Of a stretch of 64,000 nt of DNA, positions 1 through 63,930 are shown piece after piece. Origin of the DNA: Paralichthys olivaceus (lineage: Eukaryota; Chordata; Actinopteri; Pleuronectiformes; Paralichthyidae). The stretch lies in contig NC_091100.1 in NCBI RefSeq assembly GCF_024713975.1, positions 18,372,001-18,436,000 of the forward strand, in the 5' to 3' direction. Within the stretch, counting starts at the first letter, position 1, and each line of letters begins with the position of its first letter. A program made the position numbers and the translations under genes. The notes under the pieces were generated by a model, which saw only the letters and a program-made list of their open reading frames with translations, was not told the origin of the DNA and searched no databases.

Positions 1-665
1 AACAGTGCTTATATGCTAGAAACAACCTAAATAACTGGTGTAAAACATGTGAATATAACAAAGTTAACCTTGAGGTATGTGTATGCTGAAAAACAAAAAT
101 TGTTAACACAATAAAAATAAGTAATACAAATAAATTAAGGTTATATTAAAGTTCAATTCTATTAAAATTACTTTTATTTGCACAAACTTAATTAATTAAT
201 TTGTGTGTTACCAGTTAATTATTACTCAAAGTTGGTTCAACTATTTTAATTTCTCGGTGTGAGGTAAAATTCCTGTTTAAAAAGTGATAATTTACTAAAA
301 CTGCTAAATATATATATATATATAGTTATTATCATATTATATTGAAAATGTTTAATAAGATCCTCTGCATTGAATAAAAGGGGTGAAAAGCAGTGATAAT
401 TACATTTAATTATATCTCATCTGTGTTGCTGGAAAGTCTTTAACAATGTAAGTGTTAATTATTCAGATGAGTCGGTGCCTGTGCTGAGGCAGAAGATTTA
501 TAGAAAGAAGAAGAGAACTAATGGCTGCAAGATACAGCTGGGAAGACTTAGTGTTGAATTAGAGCAAACAATGGCTCCATTTAGAAACAGTCCAATATCA
601 AAAGACGCACAGATCAACATGATCCTCCAAAAAAAACACTTGCATTCTTCAACACTTCCTCTTAC
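1..665 (-). other. dnm2 intron 4, AT-rich
   Basis: AT-rich intron sequence following the fourth dynamin coding exon. A short (TA)n run lies near 308-323. I see no further dynamin exon and no other gene here. Confidence 0.6.
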
Positions 666-5480
<4,815 letters not shown>

Positions 5481-11387: not shown

Positions 11388-13945
11388 TCAGACATTACAA
11401 TACACGGCTGATTCATCTGTTGCCATGTGTGTGATGATGGAGTATGTGGTCTCTGCAGGGCTAGGTGTGACACTGCTGCGGTCTGCCTGCGTGTTGAAGT
11501 TGACACAGGAGTAAAACAGTTCGTCTGATAGGTATCTGCTGGTCTTGGGGCCATCTGTGGCCTCATCGTCTTTAGCTGACGAAGAAGAAGTGATGATATC
11601 GTGGTTGTTTCCGGTCAGACTGGACGGCGATGCATAGTCAGTCTTCTGGTACTTTCCTGTGTGGAGAGTGATGTTACATCGACAAAGTTTTAAATGCCTG
11701 CAAAGTAAAATCTGTATTTTTCACTTTGACTTACTGAAAAATAATCAATATTTATACTGGCATAATTTTACATTAAAAGCAGCAAATAACCAAAATACAG
11801 TAGAATACATTGCCATCTGTTCAATGTTATCTTTTTCATGCATTATGTCCTGAACCAATATTCTGTCAATTTTATATATTTTGCCCAGAAATAATAGCAT
11901 TTTCAAGAGGGTTGTACCGATGCAGACACAAGGACAACATGCAAACTAAGACCTAAGCCAAACTGGAATTCTAACCACAAACCATTGATCTAAAAATGAA
12001 AACACTGTATGAGCCTTGTATTTCTTCTTAATGAGCAGAAAATACAATAAATGGTTGGATGTAGTCTAAAATATGTTTACCTATGACCTACTAGCTTGGG
12101 TCTGTGCCAGGACCTGAGTCTGGTGAGTTTCGTTCTCAACGCTGATTGGCTTTCACGACATGGTTTCATATACATTTTTTTGCTCAAGGTCAAATGAAAA
12201 ATTATTGTCTTTGTGTGCATGGCCACTTTGCATTGACTTTGTCTCATCACATGAAAACTTCCCTTAGCCTTTGGTGTGAACACATCAGCATTACACACAC
12301 ACCAGTGCTTCTACATGGTTGCTATGGCTCTCTGACACAGTGTCATGAGGTGCTTGTAATAGCGTTCAGGTCTTGGTTTTCCCATGTCTTTGCTATTGTG
12401 TATCATTTGGCTGTTGTGGTAGTTCTGGGCATAATATAAAAACTTCCATCATATCATATAAGCACTGTTTGTTTTTAACCAGAGGATGTGCTGATGTCTC
12501 CGTTTCGATGTTTGAAGAATATCAGCAGCACCACGGCCAGAGCCAGCAAAACCACCCCGAGGCCTATTCCAGTGTACATCAGTTTCTCTGGAGAAAGGAG
12601 ACAACATCACATCTCAGTGGAGATACATCACTCAGGACTCTGTGTCTCACATATATGCATATCTACACACCTGCAGAATCTGACTTAGTAGGACCTGGTG
12701 CAGTAAATGCAAGATGTGCTGCATTTGTAGAAAATGCAAGATGTGCTGCATTTGTAGTAAATGCTTCACCTACAGTTGATTGTGAAAAGTCACCATCAGG
12801 GTCGTGTGTTCTTCCTGAAAGAAACAAATAAAACAGACAGAGTGATGTTTATCTTCTTCCTTGTCTCGTTTCTGTTATAGTGTCTCACTTCTTGTCTGTT
12901 GCAAAAAAGAGAAGATCAGTACGTAACACAAGCTGTCATGAAATGTCGATCACATTTTGTGAAAAGGAAATGGAATAAAAAGGTTAAAGTGATAAAGTGA
13001 CGACAAATGACAACGCCATAAAAATAGTTTCTGTGCAGCGTGGACTGAACTCACCCTTTATTACTGTGAGGACGACTTTGTTGAACGTGTCCTTAAGAAC
13101 TCTATCTATTCCACAAAAGTAGGTTCCTGTGTCGTCCTCTGTCAGATGAGAGATGGTCACAGAGAACGTGTTTCCTTTGTCTTCGATACTGTATCTGCTC
13201 TTACTCTCATCATTGCTTCTTATTAGGACGTCTTTATCCTTACAAGGATCCTTGCAGAAATATTTGATGTTTCCCTCTGCATTAGTGTGAGAGCATGATA
13301 TTGTGACGTCTCCCCCCAGATCTCCTGTTACAGATGTAGCTTCAGTCTCCCAAAATCCTGCACAAGACACAGAGACAGCAACAAAAGTCCATTCAGCCTT
13401 CAACAACTATTTCCTATAAACTCTCATGTCAATAGATTCACTCCTGTAAAGCAGTGGTCCCCATTAACAATCCCTATGTGGAAGTTGTTGACAGAGTTTT
13501 CTTTAATGTGAGTATTTCCAGAAGTCCTCATAGGCAGATGTATGCAGTATTTCCCAAAACATCAAAAACCTGGAAAAATAACCTGAAATTTATGTTATAT
13601 ATTTTATAGTTTTTAACCCTGTCACTGTTTTTGCGGTTAGTTAAGCTGATTTAGAGGTGCACCCACTGTTTTATCTAAACAGCTCTCAACAGCAACTACA
13701 AATCTCAAAGTTTCCTCCCAGCTTCGTCAAAACAGTTTAAAAGACAACAGAGTTAATAGATGAGGCTGAAAATCAACAGCGAGGCAACAGGAAGTGTCAT
13801 TTTTAAAATTAGAAATGTGAGAATGAAAAGTTGTGAGTGTGTTCACTGAAACAAAGACACAGAACACAAACTCAAATGAGTCAATATCAGGAAACTTACC
13901 TCCCACAAGAATCAGAATGAGGAAAACCTTGTCCATGCTACTCAT
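11388..13945 (-). CDS. CD300/pIgR-like receptor R2, one Ig domain, inhibitory-type tail
   Basis: About 289 aa. Exons (minus): 13900-13945 (signal peptide, MDKVFLILILVGG), 13055-13357 (V-type Ig), 12671-12814 (stalk), 12480-12587 (transmembrane, MYTGIGLGVVLLALAVVLL), 11388-11656 (tail, TGA stop). The first four exons end in phase 1. Two in-frame ATGs are possible at 13945 and 13936. The Ig has VTISCSH, KYFCKDPCKDKD (the extra CD300-type cysteine pair) and DDTGTYFCGID. The stalk carries two 9-residue repeats, TNAAHLAFS and TNAAHLAFT; its duplicate in R4 has only one. The tail contains LFYSCV (ITIM pattern), TTYSII (TxYxxI, ITSM-like) and AVYCNV. R2 is the apparent donor of the ectodomain of chimeric R4. 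Confidence 0.82.
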
Positions 13946-14461
13946 ACGTCTTTGTCACTTTCCCTTTGCCTTTTACTGATCTCTGGTTTCATGTCTTTGT
14001 AGCTGTGTTTCCTCTTTGCTGTTGCACCACCTATGTTTCAGTAGCTTCCTCTGTTTTAACCTCACTCTGAAACCACTTAGAAGATGTGAGTAGCACCTCG
14101 AACTACCCTCCCATCCTTGTCTCACTGGGAATATAATAGTACAGTGAATAACACATTCATGTAATATAACTTGATTTATTTGGGGAAAATGTATCTCATA
14201 TCTAATTTTCCTTTCTTCTATTTCATCTAAAATTAAGAAAGCACAACATTACAATGAATTTTGAATTTATAATTGTTCATAAACAGTATAGGTTCATTCA
14301 AAACTTATAAAACATGGGCGTTTTGGTCACCAATCATACTATTATTAAAACTCTATTAGCACCAAGGTATCTCAGAAAGTAGGAAGTTACAACTGGTGGT
14401 TTAAGGTGCTGTGTAAAGTTTTAGTAATAAAAGACCCGAATTGTAAATAAACTGAGGGGTA

Positions 14462-15495
14462 TCAACAGTTCATCTGCGTGGGTCCCTCTTTGGGACCACA
14501 AAGCTTGTGATAAACATGATCCTCCAACTGGCTGAGATCCAGATGTTGGTACTGGCAGACATGTCCTCGTACATCCACATCATAATATTCACTGAGAGTG
14601 ACAGCGGACTCCCGGTGATTTGGCGTTAGGTGGGAGCAGAGGTCAGGAGGTGGGGGTGATGGAGCTGAAAGAGCAGCACGGTCCAAAGGTGAACAGGTGC
14701 AGCTGGGTTCAGGTTCAGTTCCTACACCAGGCGTCACTGTCTCATAGTCATTCGATGTCTGTGAAGGGAACAGAAACACGTCCTGTATAAGAGATCAAAC
14801 TATTATCTCCATGAGATTGTGTGTTTGCAAGGTAATGTGGTGTCTTTAACAGGCCAAAAAGACTAAAATAACTTTCACACATGAAATTATCAAGACATTC
14901 ACCAGAGGAACTGTACGTGTGAACTCAAATGACCAAATCCACTGGACTGGACCAGATGAACAGCTCTTCATTCTAAGTTTGTGTAATGTCTGATTGAGCC
15001 CCTGGCTGCAGACGTTTCTGTCACAGACTGACCTCTTCGTTCTGGGGTGGGCCTGATCTCTGGTGTTTGACAGCGTGCAGGAGACACAGTGTAAACAGAC
15101 ACACAAACAGTATGGCTGCCACACACATCGCCGCAGTCAGCAACAGTGACATGTTGAGCTCTGCAGGAAAGAACGACATGTCCAATTACCTCGAAGAAGA
15201 TTTACACACTTTAGATTTGAGTAATATCAACGCAAATGGCACACACACACAAATATAAATCACTCACTGTCCATTGGGACGTCTGTGGGAAAGTTGGATA
15301 CTTCATTTACTGAGTGCAAAGAAAAAAAAAAAGTATTTATGTTGTTTATTTATTTATAATATGTATTTACACACAAACAAGCTTCATAAACATATTTTAA
15401 CAGGAATAGAAAGTTCAAAAAAGAGGAAGATGACCCTGACTTAGTTCTCATTTACGGTATGAATGGCCTGACATTTATACCCTGCAGGTTGACAG

Positions 15496-15555
<60 letters not shown>

Positions 15556-15564
15556 CTCTATCTC

Positions 15565-15615
<51 letters not shown>

Positions 15616-15616
15616 C

Positions 15617-15659
<43 letters not shown>

Positions 15660-15712
15660 CTCTATCTCTCTATCTCTCTATCTCTCTATCTATCTATCTA
15701 TCTCTCTATCTC

Positions 15713-15744
<32 letters not shown>

Positions 15745-16257
15745 CACATGGCTGTACCTTGAGAGACGTTCAGGTGTATGGCACTGATATGATCCGGGTG
15801 TAAGCTGACGTCCACCCCGCACCAGTATGTCCCACTGTCCTCTGGGACAAGTCTGTCCACTTTGACCAGGAAGAAGGCCGCAGTGGTGTTGTCGTACAGG
15901 GAGAAGCGTCCATTTGTTTCCCACTCGTTGTGTTGATCCGTGCGTATCAGGTGATTGTCATTGTCGTCCATACGGCAGAGGTACTTGGCGTTGCTCCACC
16001 AGCTCTGTGGGTATTCACATTTGAAGTAAAACGTCTGACCCTCCTCACCGGTCACGGCTGTGGTTCTGACACTGATCAGAGCTGTCAGAATGATAAACTC
16101 TGTTAGGTTTGTAATTAGTTTTTGGTTTGGATCAGTTTGAGTCTGTCACAGCAGCTTAAAAAGTCCTAATGCATAAAGGAATCAGCTTACCTGGGATTTG
16201 TGATGCTGTAAAGATAAGAGTTATAATTGTTGTCCATGAGATCCAGGCTGCTCCCAT
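14462..16257 (-). CDS. CD300/pIgR-like receptor R3, one Ig domain
   Basis: About 285 aa. Exons (minus): 16191-16257 (signal, [20 protein letters not shown]), 15758-16081 (V-type Ig), 15268-15309 (42-nt stalk), 15033-15160 (transmembrane, [19 protein letters not shown]), 14462-14758 (tail). Phases are 1,1,1,0. The Ig has [14 protein letters not shown] and [10 protein letters not shown]. The second cysteine pair seen in R2 is absent. The tail is proline-rich near its start and has SEYYDV (ITIM pattern), NDYETV, CQYQHL and HVYHKL, so it may be a phosphotyrosine docking tail rather than a classical ITIM receptor. A TCTA microsatellite of about 250 bp sits directly downstream of the Ig exon donor. 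R5 is the recent copy. Confidence 0.8.
15495..15744. repeat. (TCTA)n microsatellite, long allele copy
   Basis: Interrupted TCTA/TCTC tetranucleotide array, about 250 bp, in the R3 intron just after the Ig exon. The same array in the duplicated copy (R5) is about 93 bp. Serine/isoleucine/tyrosine frames across it are artefacts of the repeat. Confidence 0.95.
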
Positions 16258-18005
16258 CACTCCCAGTTTACTTACAGATCACGCTGTCACACTCTCTGCT
16301 GCTATTGTGTTCAGTGAGGTGCTTTTCATGCCTCTTCCTCTTTTTTAAACAACCTGTCCACACATCACACTCAACCTATGAAAGTGAAATTATGAACTTA
16401 TTGTAACTCGTGTGAGTCAAAAACAACCATCTCGTGTCCTCATAAACTATATCCCACACCAGCACATCCTGCTTCAGTTAAGGGGATAATGCAAGTTTAG
16501 TTTGTTGCATCCTGCAAGGTCGTCACATCTTCTATTATAATTCATCAAGGTAAAATAGAGCTGATCTAGTCTCGAAGAAGACTCAAAGTTTTTTTAACAC
16601 ACAGTTTACAGTTCATTTGTGTACAGCCCTTTCTCTATCACACACAGGGGTTACTGAGGTGAACACTTGGGTATGAGGAATGAGGGAGACTGGTATCAAA
16701 CCACAAGCCCTCCGGTTAGTGGACGACCCGCTCTACCTTCTGAGCCACAGCAGCCCATGATCACAAACTAACAGCCGTGACAAGGATCATCACAAGCCTA
16801 AGGGATTTTTCAGAACATGCCAGTTCAATGTATTTTACCACTGACCTGCCATGAAGAAACAGAAAAAAAAGAAATGCATTCACTTTTTCTCAATTGACAC
16901 TTGACATTAAAATTACTCATCTGTTCCAAATCCTATCGAAACTTTGTTTGGCTATTAATTTCACCAATGCACAACAAAATATACTTTGTTATAAATATGT
17001 AACTATCATTGTGCGTCTGTATCTTATCATGCATTAATAATATCTGATCTGTAGAACAACAGATTAACATTCTACTGACAAGCACATGGGGACTGATATT
17101 TAATTGGACCTTGATTTAATATGAATGTGATGAGATGACACGTGTCTGTTGTAGAGGACTGGATGAGGAAGCTTTGTTCATTTGATCACTTCTTGCCTCT
17201 TCTTTCATTACCCTATTTAACAGTTTCTTTGCTGGGATCCATTTCCCACCTCTCTTCTATCAGTTAGATTAATATTAATCTCTTCACATTATTCCAACAA
17301 CACATCCTTTCTTTTCACTTCTTTATGAAGAAGATATCACTGTCCCATGTTAAACACAACGCAATAGGTTTCACTGTCATGTGGAAATGTGAAATTCTTA
17401 TTTGGTGACTTTATTCATAAGACAGCTTGGAGTCACCAGAGTCTGAACTTTTAACATAAATACAGATCAGCCAAAAATGCGGGCTCAATTATAGTTTATA
17501 GTATTTTTGTAATTGATAAATTCATTTTTTTTTATTTCATACACACACAGCATCATCACATACATATGAAGAGCATGATACAGAAAATAACAACATAACA
17601 AAAACGAATTAAGAAACAAATAAACAAAACAGTGACCGCTGTAAATAACATGATGTCTTTCATGACCTATTTATAAAGGCTTAAAATGTTCTCATTTACC
17701 TCACTGATCTTCTCTCATGTCTCCATGCAAGAAGATAATGGGAGCCACAATTCTTCAAAACATGCCCATGACTGTGTTTTTCAGGAGCTCATTTCTCTAA
17801 AGTAAAGAGTTTTAATATTTGGTCCACAAACATCTTAAAATATGTATGTGAGCAAAAAAGGTGAGCTAAGCCATATTATATACCATCAACACAACATACA
17901 GACCATGTAGTTGTACATGTGCAGAAGCAGAGTGAGTCGTACAGTTCAGCCGCATAAAAACTCCATAACAACATACAAAACTCACATCTCTGAGATGAAC
18001 TCAGG
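16258..18005. other. intergenic, R3 to R4 (duplicated)
   Basis: Upstream of R3 and downstream of R4. It is part of the tandem duplication and nearly identical to 22391-24139. It contains a tRNA-like SINE fragment at 16645-16755 and AT-rich sequence. I see no coding exon. Confidence 0.6.
16645..16755 (-). repeat. tRNA-derived SINE-like fragment, copy 1
   Basis: Read on the minus strand it has a box A-like TGGCTCAGAAGGTAGAGC and a box B-like GGTTTGATACC about 40 nt downstream. CAAGTGTTCACC and a body typical of teleost tRNA-derived SINEs follow. It is not a tRNA gene: the cloverleaf arms do not close and box B is altered. Confidence 0.6.
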
Positions 18006-20245
18006 CTATTCAGACAAATTGAAGCCAAACCAAAGTGAGCGGGGCTCAGATTCAGTGGAATCACTGCAGGTTCTGTAGTAAACAACTGAGACAGTGCTCA
18101 AACCGCTGTCTGTCACTTTGATCATAGCATTCCTCAGTGCTGCGGGTGCATCGGTGTCTTTTCTGAGACAGCCATCACCGGCTCTTTGTGATATCATGGT
18201 GCTGAGGACATTTGCAGCTGAATGTCTTGACTCTGTAGCACCTCTGGAGCAGATGCTTTCACTGATATGAAGTGGTGCGCTGTACTTGACCTCTGCGTAC
18301 ACAGAAGTTGAAGGATCCTGTTTTGGGTGGTGAGCACCAGAGTTCTTCTCAGATAATCCCATCATCGACCACACTTCTTTTTCAGTGTCATTGTTCTCAT
18401 TGTCGAACTGTTGAAAAGTGAAAAGAGATAAATCTGCATGTCATTGTGTGTTTGACTGTGGGCTGAATGTAATTTAAAAAAAATAAGACAGGTGACTCTC
18501 TCCCTGTCTAAATCTCTTTAAGATAATGAAGAAGTGTATTTCCTAAAAAGTTAAGTTATTGCATTAATTCCTGTATCACTGACAATAATTGTCTGAGCTG
18601 TGGTTTTAAATTGTTTAATGATGAATAAAGAACCATGTGGTGAAAGTGAATTTGGAAAACCCCCTCCACATGTCGACCGTGTTTAATTTGCTGTCAGCAT
18701 TATCATCATGCGTCTCTGTAGAAAGAAGGTTGTTAGGCCGTGTGGAGACATATTGACGTGTTATCAACTCTCTGTCTCATACCTCTCCTTCATCTGCACT
18801 GACGAAGTCTCTGCGTTTCCTGAATCTTGTTGCCAGCAGCAGTGACACACTGAGCGTGGCGATGCTCCCAACAGTAGCGTACAGCACCATGTCTGGCCAA
18901 AGGCGAAAAGTGTCTCAATCATTTTTTGTTTGCGTCACAAGTTACACCAAATGATCAGATAGAAACTCACCTAGGCCGGTGTTCTGTTCTCCTGCAGACA
19001 ATGACTTAGTAGGACCTGGTCCGTTTGTAGAAAATGCAAGATGTGCTGCATTTGTAGTAAATGCTTCACCTATAGTTGATTGTGAAAAGTCACCATCAGG
19101 GTCGTGTGTTCTTCCTGAAAGAAACAAATAAAACAGACAGAGTGATGTTTATCTTCTTCCTTGTCTCGTTTCTGTTATAGTGTCTCACTTCTTGTCTGTT
19201 GCAAAAAAGAGAAGATCAGTACGTAACACAAGCTGTCATGAAATGTCGATCACATTTTGTGAAAAGGAAATGGAATAAAAAGGTTAAAGTGATAAAGTGA
19301 CGACAAATGACGACGTCATAAAAATAGTTTCTGTGCAGCGTGGACTGAACTCACCCTTCATTACTGTGAGGACGACTTTGTTGAACGTGTCCTTAAGAAC
19401 TCTATCTATTCCACAAAAGTAGGTTCCTGTGTCGTCCTCTGTCAGATGAGAGATGGTCACAGAGAACGTGTTTCCTTTGTCTTCGATACTGTATCTGCTC
19501 TTACTCTCATCATCGCTTCTTATTAGGACGTCTTTATCCTTACAAGGATCCTTGCAGAAATATTTGATGTTTCCCTCTGCATTAGTTTGAGAGCATGGAA
19601 TTGTGACGTCTCCCCCCAGATCTCCTGTTACAGATGTAGCTTCAGTCTCCCAAAATCCTGCACAAGACACAGAGACAGCAACAAAAGTCCATTCAGCCTT
19701 CAACAACTATTTCCTATAAACTCTCATGTCAATAGATTCACTCCTGTAAAGCAGTGGTCCCCATTAACAATCCCTATGTGGAAGTTGTTGACAGAGTTTT
19801 CTTTAATGTGAGTATTTCCAGAAGTCCTCATAGGCAGATGTATGCAGTATTTCCCAAAACATCAAAAACCTGGAAAAATAACCTGAAATTTATGTTATAT
19901 ATTTTATAGTATTTAACCCTGTCACTGTTTTTGCGGTTAGTTAAGCTGATTTAGAGGTGCACCCACTGTTTTATCTAAACAGCTCTCAACAGCAACTACA
20001 AATCTCAAAGTTTCCTCCCAGCTTCGTCAAAACAGTTTAAAAGACAACAGACTTCATAGATGAGGCTGAAAATCAACAGCGAGGCAACAGGAAGTGTCAT
20101 TTTTAAAATTAGAAATGTGAGAATGAAAAGTTGTGAGTGTGTTCACTGAAACAAAGACACAGAACACAAACTCAAATGAGTCAATATCAGGAAACTTACC
20201 TCCCACAAGAATCAGAATGAGGAAAACCTTGTCCATTCTCCTCAT
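18006..20245 (-). CDS. chimeric CD300/pIgR-like receptor R4 (R2 ectodomain, R6 tail)
   Basis: About 334 aa. Exons (minus): 20200-20245 (signal), 19355-19657 (Ig), 18971-19114 (fused stalk exon), 18783-18892 (transmembrane, MVLYATVGSIATLSVSLLLA), 18006-18407 (tail, TAG stop). Phases agree throughout. The signal, Ig and first part of the stalk are R2-like; the end of the stalk, membrane and tail are R6-like. The stalk reads RTHDPDGDFSQST...GPTKSLSAG, then EQNTGLG. The junction lies at TCTGCA, shared by both parents. The fused exon kept R2's acceptor and R6's donor and lost R2's donor and R6's acceptor. The tail has SVYAEV (ITIM pattern) and VVYY. Relative to R2 the Ig domain has S-to-P, H-to-Q, N-to-D and I-to-M changes. 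No stop or splice-site loss is visible, so it looks functional. Confidence 0.85.
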
Positions 20246-20761
20246 ACGTCTTTGTCACTTTCCCTTTGCCTTTTACTGATCTCTGGTTTCATGTCTTTGT
20301 AGCTGTGTTTCCTCTTTGCTGTTGCACCACCTATGTTTCAGTAGCTTCCTCTGTTTTAACCTCACTCTGAAACCACTTAGAAGATGTGAGTAGCACCTCG
20401 AACTACCCTCCCATCCTTGTCTCACTGGGAATATAATAGGACAGTGAATAACACATTCATGTAATATAACTTGATTTATTTGGGGAAAATGTATCTCATA
20501 TCTAATTTTCCTCTCTTCCATTTCATCTAAAAGAAAGAAAGCACAACATTACAATGAATTTTGAATTTATAATTGTTCATAAACAGTATAGGTTCATTCA
20601 AAACTTATAAAACATGGGCGTTTTGGTCACCAATCATACTATTATTAAAACTCTATTAGCACCAAGGTATCTCAGAAAGTAGGAAGTTACAACTGGTGGT
20701 TTAAGGTGCTGTGTAAAGTTTTAGTAATAAAAGACCCGAATTGTAAATAAACTGAGGGGTA

Positions 20762-21784
20762 TCAACAGTTCATCTGCGTGGGTCCCTCTTTGGGACCACA
20801 AAGCTTGTGATAAACATGATCCTCCAACTGGCTGAGATCCAGATGTTGGTACTGGCAGACATGTCCTCGTACATCCACATCATAATATTCACTGAGAGTG
20901 ACAGCGGACTCCCGGTGATTTGGCGTTAGGTGGGAGCAGAGGTCAGGAGGTGGGGGTGATGGAGCTGAAAGAGCAGCACGGTCCAAAGGTGAACAGGTGC
21001 AGCTGGGTTCAGGTTCAGTTCCTACACCAGGCGTCATTGTCTCATAGTCATTCGATGTCTGTGAAGGGAACAGAAACACATCCTGTATAAGAGATCAAAC
21101 TATTATCTCCATGAGATTGTGTGTTTGCAAGGTAATGTGGTGTCTTTAACAGGCCAAAAAGACTAAAATAACTTTCACACATGAAATTATCAAGACATTC
21201 ACCAGAGGAACTGTACGTGTGAACTCAAATGACCAAATCCACTGGACTGGACCAGATGAACAGCTCTTCATTCTAAGTTTGTGTAAAGTCTGATTGAGCC
21301 CCTGGCTGCAGACGTTTCTGTCACAGACTGACCTCTTCGTTCTGGGGTGGGCCTGATCTCTGGTGTTTGACAGCGTGCAGGAGACACAGTGTAAACAGAC
21401 ACACAAACAGTATGGCTGCCACACACATCGCCGCAGTCAGCAACAGTGACATGTTGAGCTCTGCAGGAAAGAACGACATGTCCAATTACCTCGAAGAAGA
21501 TTTACACACTTTAGATTTGAGTAATATCAACGCAAATGGCACACACACACAAATATTGTCCATTGGGACGTCTGTGGGAAAGTTGGATACTTCATTTATT
21601 AAGTGCAAAGACAAAAAAAAAGTATTTATGTTGTTTATTTATTTATAATATGTATTTACACACAAACAAGCTTCATAAACATATTTTAACAGGAATAGAA
21701 AGTTCAAAAAAGAGGAAGATGACCCTGACTTAGTTCTCATTTACGGTATGAATGGCCTGACATTTATACCCTGCAGGTTGACAG

Positions 21785-21832
<48 letters not shown>

Positions 21833-21841
21833 CTCTATCTC

Positions 21842-21877
<36 letters not shown>

Positions 21878-22390
21878 CACATGGCTGTACCTTGAGAGAC
21901 GTTCAGGTGTATGGCACTGATATGATCCGGGTGTAAGCTGACGTCCACCCCGCACCAGTATGTCCCACTGTCCTCTGGGACAAGTCTGTCCACTTTGACC
22001 AGGAAGAAGGCCGCAGTGGTGTTGTCGTACAGGGAGAAGCGTCCATTTGTTTCCCACTCGTTGTGTTGATCCGTGTGTATCAGGTGATTGTCATTGTCGT
22101 CCATACGGCAGAGGTACTTGGCGTTGCTCCACCAGCTCTGTGGGTATTCACATTTGAAGTAAAACGTCTGACCCTCCTCACCGGTCACGGCTGTGGTTCT
22201 GACACTGATCAGAGCTGTCAGAATGATAAACTCTGTTAGGTTTGTAGTTAGTTTTTGGTTTGGATCAGTTTGAGTCTGTCACAGCAGCTTAAAAAGTCCT
22301 AATGCATAAAGGAATCAGCTTACCTGGGATTTGTGATGCTGTAAAGATAAGAGTTATAATTGTTGTCCATGAGATCCAGGCTGCTCCCAT
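20762..22390 (-). CDS. CD300/pIgR-like receptor R5, copy of R3 lacking the stalk exon
   Basis: About 271 aa if the lost exon is skipped. Exons (minus): 22324-22390 (signal), 21891-22214 (Ig), 21333-21460 (transmembrane), 20762-21058 (tail). The protein is almost identical to R3. Changes seen include R-to-H in DNDNHLI(H)TDQ and V-to-M in YET(M)TPG. The 42-nt stalk exon is still recognisable at about 21557-21598, but an 11-bp deletion removes its GT donor and its CAG acceptor now reads TAA. Because that exon was phase 1-1, joining Ig to transmembrane keeps the frame: LNVSQ then ELNMSLLLT. The product would be R3 with its 14-residue stalk removed. A pseudogene in the making is an alternative, but no stop is seen. 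Confidence 0.75.
21784..21877. repeat. (TCTA)n microsatellite, short copy
   Basis: About 93 bp, the counterpart in R5 of the ~250-bp array at 15495. The difference accounts for nearly all of the length difference between duplication copies. Confidence 0.93.
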
Positions 22391-24139
22391 CACTCCCAGT
22401 TTACTTACAGATCACGCTGTCACACTCTCTGCTGCTATTGTGTTCAGTGAGGTGCTTTTCATGCCTCTTCCTCTTTTTTAAACAACCTGTCCACACATCA
22501 CACTCAACCTATGAAAGTGAAATTATGAACTTATTGTAACTCGTGTGAGTCAAAAACAACCATCTCATGTCCTCATAAACTATATCCCACACCAGCACAT
22601 CCTGCTTCAGTTAAGGGGATAATGCAAGTTTAGTTTGTTGCATCCTGCAAGGTCGTCACATCTTCTATTATAATTCATCAAGGTAAAATAGAGCTGATCT
22701 AGTCTCGAAGAAGACTCAAAGTTTTTTTAACACACAGTTTACAGTTCATTTGTGTACAGCCCTTTCTCTATCACACACAGGGGTTACTGAGGTGGACACT
22801 TGGGTATGAGGAATGAGGGAGACTGGTATCAAACCACAAGCCCTCCGGTTAGTGGACGACCCGCTCTACCTTCTGAGCCACAGCAGCCCATGATCACAAA
22901 CTAACAGCCGTGACAAGGATCATCACAAGCCTAAGGGATTTTTCAGAACATGCCAGTTCAATGTATTTTACCACTGACCTGCCATGAAGAAACAGAAAAA
23001 AAAGAAATGCATTCACTTTTTCTCAATTGACACTTGACATTAAAATTACTCATCTGTTCCAAATCCTATCGAAACTTTGTTTGGCTATTAATTTCACCAA
23101 TGCACAACAAAATATACTTTGTTATAAATATGTAACTATCATTGTGCGTCTGTATCTTATCATGCATTAATAATATCTGATCTGTAGAACAACAGATTAA
23201 CATTCCACTGACAAGCACATGGGGACTGATATTTAATTGGACCTTGATTTAATATGAATGTGATGAGATGACACGTGTCTGTTGTAGAGGACTGGATGAG
23301 GAAGCTTTGTTCATTTGATCACTTCTTGCCTCTTCTTTCATTACCCTATTTAACAGTTTCTTTGCTGGGATCCATTTCCCACCTCTCTTCTATCAGTTAG
23401 ATTAATATTAATCTCTTCACATTATTCCAACAACACATCCTTTCTTTTCACTTCTTTATGAAGAAGATATCACTGTCCCATGTTAAACACAACGCAATAG
23501 GTTTCACTGTCATGTGGAAATGTGAAATTCTTATTTGGTGACTTTATTCATAAGACAGCTTGGAGTCACCAGAGTCTGAACTTTTAACATAAATACAAAT
23601 CAGCCAAAAATGCGGGCTCAATTATAGTTTATAGTATTTTTGTAATTGATAAATTCATTTTTTTTTATTTCATACACACACAGCATCATCACATACATAT
23701 GAAGAGCATGATACAGAAAATAACAACATAACAAAAACGAATTAAGAAACAAATAAACAAAACAGTGACCGCTGTAAATAACATGATGTCTTTCATGACC
23801 TATTTATAAAGGCTTAAAATGTTCTCATTTACCTCACTGATCTTCTCTCATGTCTCCATGCAAGAAGATAATGGGAGCCACAATTCTTCAAAAACATGCC
23901 CATGACTGTGTTTTTCAGGAGCTCATCCCTCTAAAGTAAAGAGTTTTAATATTTGGTCCACGAACATCTTAAAATATGTATGTGAGCAAAAAAAGTGAGC
24001 TAAGCCATATTATATACCATCAACACAACATACAGACCATGTAGTTGTACATGTGCAGAAGCAGAGTGAGTCGTACAGTTCAGCCGCATAAAAGCTCCAT
24101 AACAACATACAAAACTCACATCTCTGAGATGAACTCAGG
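22391..24139. other. intergenic, R5 to R6 (duplicated)
   Basis: Second copy of the 16258-18005 spacer, with the same SINE-like fragment at 22778-22888. No gene is visible. Confidence 0.6.
22778..22888 (-). repeat. tRNA-derived SINE-like fragment, copy 2
   Basis: Duplicate of the element at 16645-16755, carried along by the segmental duplication and not a separate insertion. Confidence 0.6.
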
Positions 24140-26110
24140 CTATTCAGACAAATTGAAGCCAAACCAAAGTGAGCGGGGCTCAGATTCAGTGGAATCACTG
24201 CAGGTTCTGTAGTAAACAACTGACACAGTGCTCAAACCGCTGTCTGTCACTTTGATCATAGCATTCCTCAGTGCTGCAGGTGCATCGGTGTCTTTTCTGA
24301 GACAGCCATCACCGGCTCTTTGTGATATCATGGTGCTGAGGACATTTGCAGCTGAATGTCTTGACTCTGTAGCACCTCTGGAGCAGATGTTTTCACTGAT
24401 ATGAAGTGGTGCGCTGTACTTGACCTCTGCGTACACAGAAGTTGAAGGATCCTGTTTTGGGTGGTGAGCACCAGAGTTCTTCTCAGATAATCCCATCATC
24501 GACCACACTTCTTTTTCAGTGTCATTGTTCTCATTGTTGAACTGTTGAAAAGTGAATAGAGATAAATCTGCATGTCATTGTGTGTTTGACTGTGGGCTGA
24601 ATGTAATTTTTAAAAAAATAAGACTGGTGACTCTCTCCCTGTCTAAATCTCTTTAAGATAATGAAGAAGTGTATTTCCTAAAAAGTTATGTTATTGCATT
24701 AATTCCTGTATCACTGACAATAATTGTCTGAGCTGTGGTTTTAAATTGTTTAATGATGAATAAAGAACCATGTGGTGAAAGTGACTTTGGAAAACCCCCT
24801 CCACATGTCGACCATGTTTAATTTGCTGTCAGCATTATCATCATGCGTCTCTGTAGAAAGAAGGTTGTTAGGCCGTGTGGAGACATATTGACGTGTTATC
24901 AACTCTCTGTCTCATACCTCTCCTTCATCTGCACTGACGACGTCTCTGCGTTTCCTGAATCTTGTTGCCAGCAGCAGTGACACACTGAGCGTGGCGATGC
25001 TCCCAACAGTAGCGTACAGCACCATGTCTGGCCAAAGGCGAAAAGTGTCTCAATCAATTTTTGTTTGCGTCACAAGTTACACCAAATGATCAGATAGAAA
25101 CTCACCTAGGCCGATGTTCTGTTTTGCAGAAGTGTAGTTTGAGTCTGTAAGACATGATCCAGTATTATTTCATTTAAATTCTGTTTATTATTCATTAATT
25201 AACTTCATATTCACATTAATAATAATATTTACTTGCCATCTGTTATCTGCTTTGTATGGACAGTGGTGTCCATTCCAGATGTGAGATGTGTTGATTTGGG
25301 AATATTCTGATTTGTCCATGTTACAGAAATGTCAGGTGTGACAGTCGTCTTCTTTGTCTTAACTTTATTGGGATCTGCGATGGAAATCAGATTCTTAACT
25401 CAGGTAAACATACAAATACAAGAAGTTTAAACTACTTAACATAACAAGTCAATAGGTTACTGTAAGCTAAACTTACCACATACCACATACAAATTAATAA
25501 TGTGAATATCATGTAAATGTAAGAAACATCCATTCTTCAAAGAGGACAAGCTTAAATGCTCGCATTTGCATTTGACACCTGATGGTGAATGGGGAATGCA
25601 GAGAGAAAAATAAAATCAAGCGCACAAATAAATCCTACTCAAGGTGATAATGATAACATCATGCACTTACTTTCCTTTACATTCAGGATTACTGGAGCAA
25701 ACGTGTCAACACCGGGACGATCCACTCCACACCAGTATTTCCCTGAATCTGGCAGCCTGAGCTTACGGAAGGTCACAATGAAGAATCCGTCCGCCGAGTC
25801 CACCAGAGTTATCCTCCCTGACTCAACCCTTCTACCAGATTGTACAGTAGCCAGTATGTCTTTATTTCCCTTACACGGATTCTTGCAGAAGTATTTATTT
25901 TTTTCTGAGGCAAATTTGTGGGAGCACCTGACTGAGAACTGACCTCCCTCGAAGACCTCTATATTGCCTCCATCTGTCCACATAGCTGCCAAAAATTTAT
26001 TTTGTATCAAGAGTTAAAGCATCTTTAAATTTTGAATAAATAAAAAAATAAGCATTTATAGGAAGATACTTACCATATAAAAGACAAAAGAAGAGAGAAA
26101 TGGTCTTCAT
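24140..26110 (-). CDS. CD300/pIgR-like receptor R6, one Ig domain, ITIM tail
   Basis: About 346 aa. Exons (minus): 26074-26110 (signal, MKTISLFFCLLY), 25671-25985 (V-type Ig), 25237-25374 (Thr-rich stalk), 25106-25144 (39-nt second stalk exon, DSNYTSAKQNIGL), 24918-25027 (transmembrane), 24140-24541 (tail). Phases agree. The Ig has VRCSHK, KYFCKNPCKGNKD (extra cysteine pair) and DSGKYWCGVD. The 138-nt stalk exon ends at a GC donor (GATG then GCAAGT), with no usable in-frame GT site nearby. The tail has SVYAEV and differs from R4 by D-to-N in FNNENN and S-to-N in ISENICS; the membrane exon differs by F-to-V (RDVVSADEGE). R6 is the parent of the 3' half of R4. Confidence 0.8.
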
Positions 26111-34686: not shown

Positions 34687-36991
34687 TCAAGATCGTGGGA
34701 GGACCTGAGCGATGGTGTCCCGGGCACTCTGACTGAGCCTATCTGGGAACTTGACCTCGTACTCCACTATGAGGTCACCTCGACGACCGGGCCGTTTGGG
34801 ATAAGGCAGCCCTTCGCCGCTCACCCGCCGCCTCATCCCCGGCTGCACAATATCTGTCGTTGGCACGTTGACCGTCCTGTTGTCCAGTGTGGGTGCATTG
34901 ACTGTGCAGCCACACAAAGCCTGATGGGATGGAGGGGAAAATAAAAGGCGAAAAAATATTAATTAAGATCATAATTAGAACCTAACAAGGATTTTCACAG
35001 ATCATTTCCAGGTGAAAATTATAATTCTCAGGTTTACTCTTAAAGCAAAACTTTAATGAACAAAAAGGGATAAAGTTAAACATAATCTTAACTTACATCT
35101 CGGAGAGAGATCTTGGCTGTGTAAACGATGTCAGAGCCATCACGTTTAAACAGAGGATGTGGCTTGTCCTTCAACACAAAGACCACGTCAGCTGGAATGT
35201 TTCTGGGAGTCTCATCCCCCTCTTTAGGAAATGTGATTTTGGTGCCTTCTTTCCACCCCTTCTTTATCTGCACCTCCAGGATTTTATCTTCTGTCCTTAA
35301 TGTTCGCCCGTCTGGGTTCAGTCGTTTGCGAGAGATCTTCATTTTCTTTGTGCAACCTGACAGGACCTCCTCCAAGGTCACCCGCAGATTGTGAACCACA
35401 GGGGGGTCCTGCTGCTTCTTTACAACACTACTGTGACCACCCATTCCTCCCATACCCGAGCTGAAGGAGCGGGGGAACCCGCCCATTCCACTGCCACCCA
35501 TCCCAAAGCGAGCAAAAGGGTCGTCAGTGTCCATGTCTTCCTCCTTGCCCCCATTGCGGGCGCCGAAGAACTGTTCAAAGGGGTTACGCCCACCAAAGAA
35601 CTCTGCAAATATGGCATGAGGGTCGCCCTGGAAGGTGTAACTGAAGGCGCCAGGACCATCACCACCACCAGCTGAGGGGCCGCCGCCTTTCAGACCTGAG
35701 AGAGAGAAACAATCATTTAATGTAACAAAATGTGGTACGTTACTTTAGAATGTTGAAATAGACTGAGGAGTGTCGTCCATGAGGGAGACATCCATTTACT
35801 GTGCTCACATATCTTCATGCTGTTAAATTTATCATTTACTCATTTGTTGCTGATACACAGAGCAAATATATACATGCAGATGCCATTATAATTCAAAATT
35901 GATGTATCTTATATGTTAAATCTAACCACTTGAATTCCCAGCGTGTAAACATCACCACCATAACCACAGTGGCAAAAACTTACAAAACCTACTGATATGG
36001 CTGTTGAGCTGTGAGCTATCGGCCTCCTTATTTCACATTTAATGTGGTATGGATGTATTACAACACACTTTCCACACAGGGATAGAACATGAGAACAATG
36101 TGAACCTGTGCAATGTTTATACCAGAGCTGCTGCCATGGTAACACCTACAACACTGCACCCATTTCCATCCATGACTCAAGTATCATACAGCAGGGGGTC
36201 TATAACTAGGGTCAGCGGACCCCCGAGGGTCCTTGAGGAAAGCCAGGGGGTCCCAACCAAAAAGAGGAAGAAGATTAACCCATTGGTAAAGTACGAACAC
36301 AATGCATGACTATTGTGGCCCTGAATTTATACTTCCTGCAATGAAACGTCCAAAAGCAGAATTGCAGTGCATCGTGTGACATCTTCAAACAGTTAAATAT
36401 ATTAAGATGAGGATATTGAAGATAACAGGAGCTGGAATGGTGTTTTCCGCCCCACGTGTCAGGTCTCTGTGTATATGTACCACTGACTTTAGTGACGTCA
36501 CAGTAAAAGCCCCTGCTCTTGCTTCAGATCGTTTCTAACTTCATGTAGAAACAAGTTCAGTGAGATCCAACTTTCCTGTCTCAACAACAACACCCAGCCC
36601 GGACTGAAGGCCTGGGCTGGGGGGAGCAGGAGGGCGCCATGACAGCCAGGACAACACGACTGTCTCCTGGTGCTGGTCCCGCGTGTCACTGCTGTTGTTA
36701 TTGTTTCTGTCCGCTGTGGACATGTTGTTTAAGGTGTCACTGTAACGACCATGTTTAAGTGACTGGCTGATGAATCGTACCTTCTTCGCCGTAGCGATCG
36801 TAGATGTCCTTTTTGTTCGGGTCGCTCAAAACGTCGTAGGCTTCGGCGATTTCTTTGAATTTCTCCTCGGCTCCCGGTGACTTGTTCTTGTCGGGGTGAT
36901 ACTTCAGAGCCTGCTTACGATACGCTTTCTTGATGTCCTCCTCCGACGCTGCTTTGCTGATTCCCAAAATGTCGTAGTAGTCTTTGCCCAT
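34687..36991 (-). CDS. dnajb1: DnaJ homologue subfamily B member 1 (HSP40)
   Basis: Cytosolic/nuclear co-chaperone that stimulates HSP70 ATPase and delivers unfolded clients. Exons (minus): 36781-36991, 35097-35695, 34687-34920, giving 347 aa (human DNAJB1 is 340). The start is the ATG of [19 protein letters not shown]. The J domain holds the HPD tripeptide in YHPDKN at about residues 31-36. A Gly/Phe-rich linker with [18 protein letters not shown] follows, then the two beta-sandwich substrate domains ([38 protein letters not shown]) and the C-terminal dimerisation region ending VLPRS. The three-exon layout is as expected for DNAJB1. It is head-to-head with tecr. The upstream TATA box and heat-shock element indicate HSF1 control. 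Confidence 0.95.
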
Positions 36992-37096
36992 TGTGACCAA
37001 CGCGCTGCTTATTCAGTGCGACATGAAACGTTCACGGACCCTGTCGGTGGAGATCAGCTGTGTCTGATGTGTCTGCCCGTCGAGCCCGGGTCTCTT

Positions 37097-55499: not shown

Positions 55500-55789
55500 T
55501 ATTGGCACCGGCGATGTTCTACACAAGAAACGGTCAAATGTGTTGGTCTGTCCCTGTTCGATGCTAAGCTAACATCCAACAAAGTGTTTCAGCTCTCTGC
55601 CATTCGGTCACCTCCACAAGCCCCTTGCTGCCGACTTCCGCTCTACACCGGAAATAAACAGCTGAGAGGTGTTTCAGAGAAACAGCTTCCCTCCGGATTC
55701 GGACAAATGACAAAGGTTCCGGTGGCCCATGGCTGGGGTCGTGGAGAATACTATGGAGAATATTTAAAGATATACTGGTAAACAGACTG

Positions 55790-56190
55790 TATATAAAGAT
55801 ATAATGAATGTATATAAAGATACAATGAATGAGTATAAAGATATAATGAATGTATATAAAGATACAATGAATGAGTATAAAGATACAATGAATGTATATA
55901 AAGATACAATGAATGAGTATAAAGATATAATGAATGTATATAAAGATACAATGAATGAGTATAAAGATACAATGAATGTATATAAAGATACAATGAATGA
56001 GTATAAAGATATAATGAATGTATATAAAGATACAATGAATGAGTATAAAGATACAATGAATGTATATAAAGATACAATGAATGAGTATAAAGATACAATG
56101 AATGTATATAAAGATACAATGAATGAGTATAAAGATACAATGAATGAGTATAAAGATACAATGAATGTATATAAAGATACAAATGTATAA
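55790..56190. repeat. 21-bp satellite array with TATA motif
   Basis: About 19 units of 21 bp alternating between two types, ATGAATGTATATAAAGATAC and ATGAATGAGTATAAAGATAC with an extra A, forming a 42-bp higher-order unit over most of the array. Because 21 is a multiple of three, frames stay open on both strands (MNVYKDT/MNEYKDT on plus). These are not genes. Confidence 0.95.
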
Positions 56191-56640
56191 TGAATGTGTA
56201 TGAAGATATAAACACCTAAGGTAAAAAGACTGTATATAAAGATACAAATGTATAATGAATGTATATAAAGATACAAATGTATAATAAATGTATATAAAGA
56301 TATAAACACATAAGGTAAAAAGACTGTATACAAAGATACAAATGTATAATGAATGTATATAAAGATATAAACACCTAAGGTAAAAAGACTGTATATAAAG
56401 ATACAAATGTATAATAAATGTATATAAAGATACAAATGTATAATAAATGTATATAAATATACAAATGTATAATGAATGTATATAAAGATACAAATGTATA
56501 ATAAATGTATATAAAGATACAAATGTATAATGAATGTATATAAAGATATAAACACATAAGGTAAAAAGACTGTATACAAAAGTATAATGAATGTATATAA
56601 AGACACAAATGTATAAGGTAAAGAGACTATATATATGATT
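56190..56640. repeat. degenerate extension of the satellite
   Basis: Longer, less regular units built from the same words (GTATATAAAGATACAAATG, ATAAACACCTAAGGTAAAAA). CTAAGGTAAAAAGACTGTAT or a close variant marks recurring higher-order units. The long tyrosine/isoleucine frames on the minus strand come from the repeat. Confidence 0.9.
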
Positions 56641-56929
56641 ATAAAGGCATATGTATACATCTTGTGGTTATGGATGATGAAAAGTGACCGATTCAGCTAT
56701 AAACTCACATAGACAATAAATAAAGGTATTCAGTGTAAACCGTGCAAATTGTATTGAGCTTTAGCTTTATTTCTCACTCATAGGTCCGTGCAATACCTAA
56801 TTACACTCACTCAGAGATAACAGTTCCATTAATATGCTTTATTTTATTCATCTAGATACATGAACATTTCCCCAGGAAAAATGTTAAAAATTTCAAAAGA
56901 AAGCACAATCTTGCAATGTTCAAGGGAGT

Positions 56930-58119: not shown

Positions 58120-63930
<5,811 letters not shown>

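Follow-up and report, generated by a model that had tools for sequence, protein, structure and literature searches.

Hybrid genes assembled from adjacent immune receptors are already known from KIR, Siglec and CEACAM loci, and the flounder gene described here, R4, adds one more. In the available parts of the reports cited in this paragraph, human KIR hybrids such as 3DL1/L2 (3DL1*059) are described as products of exchanges in introns, at or near shared repeats (PMC3606631). Like these, R4 combines the 5′ part of one tandem receptor gene with the 3′ part of another, in a cluster with duplications/deletions, each part being near-identical to that of the neighbor it matches, with the predicted frame and splice sites kept. 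Unlike in the KIR hybrids, the joint is exonic, the parents cannot be aligned there and the receptors belong to a different family. The SIGLEC14-SIGLEC5 fusion and its reciprocal duplication in people likewise place a neighbor's body under the promoter of the adjacent gene (PMC11018521, PMC6288428), but the common human allele is a deletion removing a receptor, whereas R4 is an added gene beside which both parents remain. The dog CEACAM28/CEACAM1 pair is also similar, since 5′ flank, leader and ligand-binding exon are 99% shared while the tails differ, a sharing that was read as gene conversion (PMC2110893). In the dog, however, an activating and an inhibitory tail are contrasted, whereas both flounder tails carry inhibitory-type motifs, and R4 appears to have arisen at a duplication seam and not as a conversion tract. 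Finally, primate CD300A/CD300C are of the same broad class as R4, and gene conversion keeps their extracellular domains alike despite different signalling, but a hybrid gene is not described for that pair in the part of the report available (PMC12447643).

Two features of R4 are less ordinary, as far as the sequences tell: its joint lies in an exon where the parents show no alignable homology, and the same pairing occurs in several flatfish. The fish case keeps both parents beside the hybrid, its joint can be placed within a few bases, and the predictions for other flatfish genera include hybrids like it, which allows one to ask how frequently ligand-binding heads are moved to new signalling tails and how selection acts on such moves. 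No paper on this flounder gene was among the matches listed in the open-licence PMC literature, which is not proof of absence.

The window, i.e., the whole 64-kb stretch of Paralichthys olivaceus DNA analyzed, carries on its minus strand a cluster of V-type Ig receptors, named R1 to R7 starting from the left. All eight Ig ORFs submitted, two of which belong to R1, matched Pfam V-set. The model of R4 and its exons are as follows:

18006-20245, minus strand: R4, whole gene; intact five-exon model, 334 aa, CMRF35/CD300-like receptor
20200-20245, minus strand: R4 exon 1, R2-type, containing the start codon and signal peptide; differs from R2 exon 13900-13945 at 2 of 46 nt
19355-19657, minus strand: R4 exon 2, R2-type, encoding the V-type Ig domain; differs from R2 at 5 of 303 nt
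18971-19114, minus strand: R4 exon 3, fused stalk exon of 144 nt with the acceptor of R2 and the donor of R6; both ends are in phase 1
18783-18892, minus strand: R4 exon 4, transmembrane (TM) segment (by eye), R6-type; 1 of 110 nt differs from R6 24918-25027
18006-18407, minus strand: R4 exon 5, R6-type, encoding the cytoplasmic tail that contains SVYAEV; differs from R6 24140-24541 at 4 of 402 nt

All introns of this model are GT-AG, the exon ends are in phases 1, 1, 1 and 0, and a single frame of 334 aa is open throughout, in agreement with the earlier proposal of one fused exon that has the R2 acceptor and the R6 donor and keeps the frame. The NCBI prediction P0001, 'CMRF35-like molecule 8' of Paralichthys olivaceus, is 100% identical to the model over 334 aa. 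We considered P0001 as independent support for the assembly and rejected it as such, the NCBI model probably coming from the same assembly as the window, given that the two contigs agree in length (27,660,206).

By its single V-type Ig domain, R4 would be a member of the CD300/CMRF35-like class with a pIgR-type V domain. The R4 Ig ORF (19284-19706) matches Pfam V-set at 3.6e-14, and the PDB sequence matches include pIgR (1.1e-23) and CMRF35-H/CD300a (2q87; 2.1e-10). The class is characterized, in the part of the source available, by two disulfides, i.e., four cysteines, and by a YWCR motif (PMC3031540). Exactly four cysteines occur in the Ig domain of R4, at positions 22, 35, 39 and 82, so that it agrees with the class by cysteine count, judged from sequence alone, and reads YFCK where the class motif is YWCR, two residues being changed. 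A hydrophobic TM segment, MVLYATVGSIATLSVSLLL, was recognized by eye. As to genomic context, the same carp/zebrafish study describes, in its available part, related zebrafish loci that are not syntenic with mammalian CD300 or pIgR (PMC3031540).

Comparison of the window with itself gave two long direct matches, 15652-18988 against 21785-25123 (98.98% over 3339 columns) and 12724-15588 against 19024-21877 (98.64% over 2865 columns). They are one pair of adjacent copies of 6.1-6.3 kb, about 99% identical, whose contents are:

12724-18988, unstranded: duplicated unit, copy A; contains R2 head, R3 and R4 tail
19024-25123, unstranded: duplicated unit, copy B; contains R4 head, R5 and R6 tail
14462-16145, minus strand: R3, V-set receptor inside copy A; limits are the outermost ORFs, the signal exon lying just beyond
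20762-22278, minus strand: R5, copy of R3, inside copy B; limits are the outermost ORFs

The seam of copies A and B (18989-19023) lies inside R4, and the outer edges of the copies lie in R2 and R6. A GATA-type microsatellite stands beside the Ig exon of R3 and R5 (15490-15760 and 21780-21880) and has lost or never gained some 156 bases in copy B relative to copy A. Upstream of the genes, R4 and R2 remain alike over ~1.6 kb of 5′ flank, which falls in a single alignment of 98.6%. The original prediction, that the signal peptide, Ig domain and stalk of R2 are joined to the TM segment and tail of R6, is thus borne out by the seam and by the exon matches. Its estimate of a match of about 99% holds for the 5′ exons against R2 and the 3′ exons against R6, but not for the stalk exon, where 6 of 123 aligned nt differ between R4 and R2 and 21 nt of R2 are absent from R4.

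The genome (588,085,608 bases in 25 contigs) was also searched. The R4 Ig domain has at least 14 matches, counts for large families being lower bounds: R4 itself at 99%, R2 at 95% and 12 others at 28-42%. The R6-type tail was found only in R4 and R6 (2 matches), and the whole R4 span, taken as DNA, has three matches, namely R4 itself, the R2 head and the R6 tail, so both parents of R4 are local. The hybrid structure is, judged by these alignments, far beyond chance. The parent genes are:

11388-13945, minus strand: R2, head donor; 289-aa model with its own TM segment and tail (LFYSCV, TTYSII) and a weak TM donor at 12480
24140-26110, minus strand: R6, tail donor; 346-aa model whose stalk is divided between two exons, 25237-25374 (GC donor) and 25106-25144

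The tails of R4 and R6 each contain one match to the ITIM pattern, SVYAEV, and that of R2 has LFYSCV, also of ITIM pattern, together with TTYSII, which is of ITSM pattern. The tail of R2 is uncertain, and the R6 model has two stalk exons with a GC-donor intron that had not been mentioned before. The TM-to-tail donor of R2, CTG|gttaaa, agrees with the consensus at 5 of 9 positions (the other 12 donors of the R2, R4 and R6 models at 6 to 8), and read-through at this site gives ...STSSG followed by an immediate stop. Because this donor is weak and read-through meets a stop at once, R2 may yield a short-tailed receptor. In the R6 model, the GC-AG intron between the stalk exons (ATG|gcaagt at 25237) is needed for keeping the phase, and it is by-passed in R4. 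The protein database searches returned no row equal to R2 or R6 of this window, although R4 (P0001) was returned. Coding differences between R4 and R2 in the signal and Ig exons amount to 1 synonymous and 6 nonsynonymous, and those between R4 and R6 in the TM and tail exons to 2 synonymous and 3 nonsynonymous. With numbers this small, neither constraint nor adaptation is apparent.

The joint itself lies in a short zone of the fused exon:

18981-19001, minus strand: zone of the fused exon that contains the joint; the sequence is R2-type as far as about TCTGCAGG and R6-type beginning near AGAACAGAAC

At their ends, the stalk exons read TCTGCAG|gtgtgt in R2, TCTGCAAAACAGAAC in R6 and TCTGCAGGAGAACAGAAC in R4, exactly as the junction letters had been quoted earlier. 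In a longer reading, R2 has ...AAGTCAGATTCTGCAG|gtgtg, R4 ...AAGTCATTGTCTGCAGGAGAACAGAACACCGGCCTAG|gtgag and R6 ...ACTTCTGCAAAACAGAACATCGGCCTAG|gtgag. The differences between R4 and R2 form two small patches and the 21-nt length difference, all in the last ~55 nt of the R2 stalk exon. Five substitutions in 33 nt on this side correspond to a Poisson P of 9e-6, a value to be read knowing that they are two patches beside an indel and that the stretch was picked post hoc. Pieces of 501 nt from R2 and R6 around the joint have no alignable homology (best E 0.37). Exchange within homologous parental sequence, which a hybrid of KIR type would call for, is not seen in these pieces. R4 thus resembles a KIR hybrid in how it works but was probably not made by homologous unequal crossing-over at the joint; since the parents cannot be aligned there, end joining or microhomology would fit better than ordinary crossing-over.

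It had been proposed that the break falls at the word TCTGCA shared by R2 and R6. Chance alone is expected to produce common words of this size (6-mers, 4 observed against 1.24 expected; a single 7-mer, TTCTGCA, against 0.3 expected). A crossover exactly at this word was rejected, as R4 is three bases longer than R6 after it and these bases are, by the proteins of relatives, old R6-type sequence. In protein, the R4 stalk reads SAGEQNTGLD and that of R6 SAKQNIGLD, and HAGEQNTGSD is found in 5 of 8 aligned pleuronectid rows (P0002, P0005, P0008, P0009 and P0012, from three species), the segment being absent from the other three (P0003, P0004 and P0006). The distance from the start of this segment to the QN position is 11 residues in those five pleuronectid rows and in 9 of the 10 non-flatfish R6-type stalks that have the segment; it is 10 residues in R6 and Perca, and P0036 lacks the segment. 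As pleuronectid stalks carry R4-like AGEQN and nearly all of the R6-type stalks compared have the full length, the R6 side of R4 is older than today's R6: the GGAG/GGAGAAC of R4 is old R6-type sequence kept in pleuronectids, and present R6 is the changed copy. Either R6 changed later, or an older R6 allele was copied. An ancestral R6 with TTCTGCAGGAG would have overlapped R2 by nine bases (TTCTGCAGG).

Three protein searches yielded 87 homologues from a clustered database, whose heads and tails were classed by BLAST score thresholds against R2 and R6. Among them, 28 have an R2-type head and tail, 21 an R6-type head and tail, 12 an R2-type head with an R6-type tail and none the reverse combination; 26 of the 87 are unclassified at one or both ends. 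All 12 rows with an R2-type head and R6-type tail are from flatfish, P0001 (R4) included, the other five species being H. hippoglossus, H. stenolepis, P. platessa, L. limanda and P. flesus. Of these rows, P0010, P0011 and P0013, all from P. flesus, are mixed models that also contain an R2-type TM segment and look like read-through, and P0007 falls in the same class without a TM segment. Apart from R4, the rows P0002-P0006, P0008 and P0012, which represent four species, can be regarded as clean hybrids; two of them are partial, as P0008 breaks off within the R6-type tail after its first part and P0012 ends after the TM exon. By contrast with the hybrids, all 21 homologues with an R6-type head and tail are from non-flatfish, and the R6-type head may have been lost in pleuronectids, absence from a clustered database being weak evidence. 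This census indicates that the two unmixed architectures are the older ones and R4 is derived, in keeping with the original view of R4 as a new receptor. The opposite polarity, with R4 ancestral and R2 and R6 derived, was rejected, as the unmixed architectures occur in many other fishes and the hybrid was seen only in flatfish.

We also would like to mention that a tyrosine of the R6-type tail has apparently moved between the non-flatfish and flatfish forms. The eight non-flatfish tails checked (P0021, P0034, P0036, P0037, P0039, P0042, P0043 and P0051) all have IYENI or IYDNI and no SVY(A/T)EV, and the six flatfish tails checked (P0001-P0006) all have SVYAEV or SVYTEV, with HISE at the place of IY(E/D)NI.

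Taken together, it is highly probable that R4 is a genuine hybrid gene that arose through tandem duplication, from an R6 with the older stalk, and whose surrounding units were probably homogenized since. This reading builds on the structure, the parents, the frame and the polarity against relatives, all of which can be followed in the letters. For the mechanism of joining, the homogenization, and the expression, ligand and signalling of R4, the same data suggest rather than establish the following course. A stretch reaching from inside the R6 stalk, through R3, to inside the R2 stalk would have been tandemly duplicated, and the seam would have put an R2-type promoter, signal peptide, Ig domain and stalk onto an R6-type stalk end, TM segment and tail, in frame and within one fused exon. 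At that time the donor R6 would still have read ...GCAGGAGAACAG..., since lost from today's R6. As the 5′ flanks of R4 and R2, the likely promoters, match, R4 is expected to be on where R2 is on; its protein would be displayed wherever the R2 promoter is active, recognize the same ligand as the Ig domain of R2, and signal via SVYAEV, the one ITIM-type motif in its R6-type tail, presumably by phosphatase recruitment.

Outside the microsatellite, the two units differ at 57 of 6013 aligned sites, and within the BLAST limits by 48 substitutions in 5973. One account of this ~1% divergence is a young, self-contained duplication in which fusion and units are of the same age and no later homogenization took place; one seam, collinear units and the low overall divergence speak for it. 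The distribution of the differences agrees with it less well. Divergence climbs towards the joint, from 12/3208 in mid-unit to 18/1526 and 18/1230 beside the joint, although the zone limits were chosen after the divergence profile had been seen and the corresponding Fisher tests (p 6e-5 for all sites, 0.002 for noncoding sites) are for that reason not leaned on. Substituted sites lie nearer to the unit ends than expected (p 0.004; 0.035 for noncoding sites, the R3 exon limits being approximate), whereas equal thirds of the unit (20/2088, 8/1796 and 20/2088) show no significant heterogeneity (chi-square 4.10, p 0.13), which is what a young duplication predicts. Such a duplication would in addition need a 3-nt deletion and two substitutions within ~20 nt of R6 afterwards, next to exons that differ from R4 by 1%, and would have to accommodate the two patches and the length difference at the end of the R2 stalk. 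A recent single duplication with fast change of the stalk is a possible fit to the data, and we regard this account as rather unlikely. On balance we lean towards the units having exchanged sequence since they were duplicated, the case being moderate because the equal thirds are not significant and the zone limits are post hoc. The pattern would fit, with moderate strength, an exchange between units that fades near the end of homology. As the units probably exchanged sequence later, the 1% divergence is best read as a minimum age of the fusion; the 99% identity may date the last homogenization and not the fusion, and near-identity of tandem copies can conceal an older fusion.

The relatives bear on how often such a fusion took place. 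In pleuronectid hybrids, R2-type repeats (e.g., TTNAARPAF) lead into R6 stalk-1 sequence (e.g., TTVTPNIS), P0002 reading ...NAARPAFTTTVTPNIS..., and stalk 2 follows the stalk-1 sequence in 5 of 8 rows, whereas R4 has the whole R2 stalk, up to PTKSLSAG, and passes into stalk 2 mid-exon. The pleuronectid joints were read from predicted proteins, not from DNA. In a tree of 23 heads, in which 3 of 20 inner branches are starred, the hybrid heads group with R2-type heads of the same genus, with support of 100/98 for Paralichthys, 98/97 and 83/78 for two Hippoglossus groups, 96/96 for Pleuronectes and 91/86 for one Platichthys pair, the Limanda hybrid being placed without resolution. In a tree of 13 tails, R4 and R6 pair at 100/99 inside a flatfish group at 100/100. 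The two trees are compatible both with recurrent fusion and with an old fusion followed by concerted evolution; the flatfish fusion either recurred or is old and homogenized.

Under the latter reading, R4 and the pleuronectid hybrids would descend from a single ancient flatfish fusion that concerted evolution has given a species-specific look. The same head and tail classes in Paralichthys, two species of Hippoglossus, Pleuronectes and Limanda, with the mixed models of Platichthys, are in its favor, and grouping of hybrid heads with R2-type heads by genus is what homogenization would produce. The different joints, as seen in predicted proteins, favor recurrence over an old fusion, and the R4 locus contains no convincing remnant of R6 stalk 1 (tblastn E 0.19 at best; blastn gave five pieces, 13-24 nt long, with E 0.069-0.84). 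One ancient hybrid is thus a doubtful explanation. We also entertain, tentatively and at less than even chance, that fusion between the same two receptor classes was repeated in flatfish, with the joint at differing points of the stalk but always as R2-type head with R6-type tail, the original R6-type head being seemingly lost in pleuronectids, and that the flounder R4 is perhaps the only sound ITIM outlet of the R2 head if the R2 donor fails. If so, the cluster would be a natural repeat experiment in which one ligand-binding head is rewired to another inhibitory tail. In either case, the earlier idea of a single self-contained recombination event does not sit well with the same head/tail pairing, joined differently, in five other flatfish species. 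A search of related species for the junction had been suggested as a way to date it; it recovered the pairing but with another joint, making the event less unique and harder to date than first thought.

Recent tandem copies often decay, and R4 could be a pseudogene or an unexpressed by-product of the duplication. This is improbable, given that exons, splice sites and frame are all intact and that the protein is predicted by NCBI.

A single flounder assembly underlies the analysis. In the available part of its description, the published flounder assembly was built from PacBio HiFi reads (N50 14.23 kb) with hifiasm and purge_dups and has 588.22 Mb in 25 scaffolds (PMC9668919), and a later paper, likewise seen in excerpt, gives 588,170,514 (PMC11535246). 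HiFi reads of that N50 would span the 6.1 kb unit and its flanks, which argues against misassembly of R4, unlikely also from the sequence. Although 1% divergence could equally be allelic, an artefact from two haplotypes joined head to tail or from a chimeric read is extremely improbable, as the window contains no N, the seam offers no long overlap usable by an assembler and yet falls in frame inside matching stalk exons, the assembly appears to be the published HiFi one with purge_dups (PMC9668919), the annotations of other species include comparable hybrids, and the plaice R2-type gene P0064 and partial hybrid P0012 are presumably on one contig (380,064 bases).

Elsewhere in the window, repeat arrays with 21- and 29-base spacing at 55686-56650 leave open frames of up to 367 codons and probably represent no gene. 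On the minus strand, flanking genes were recognized by eye in 1-5300, 34700-37000 and 58300-63900, with Mx/dynamin-like (Dynamin_N match slightly under its cut-off), DnaJ-B-like and VCP/p97-like exons.
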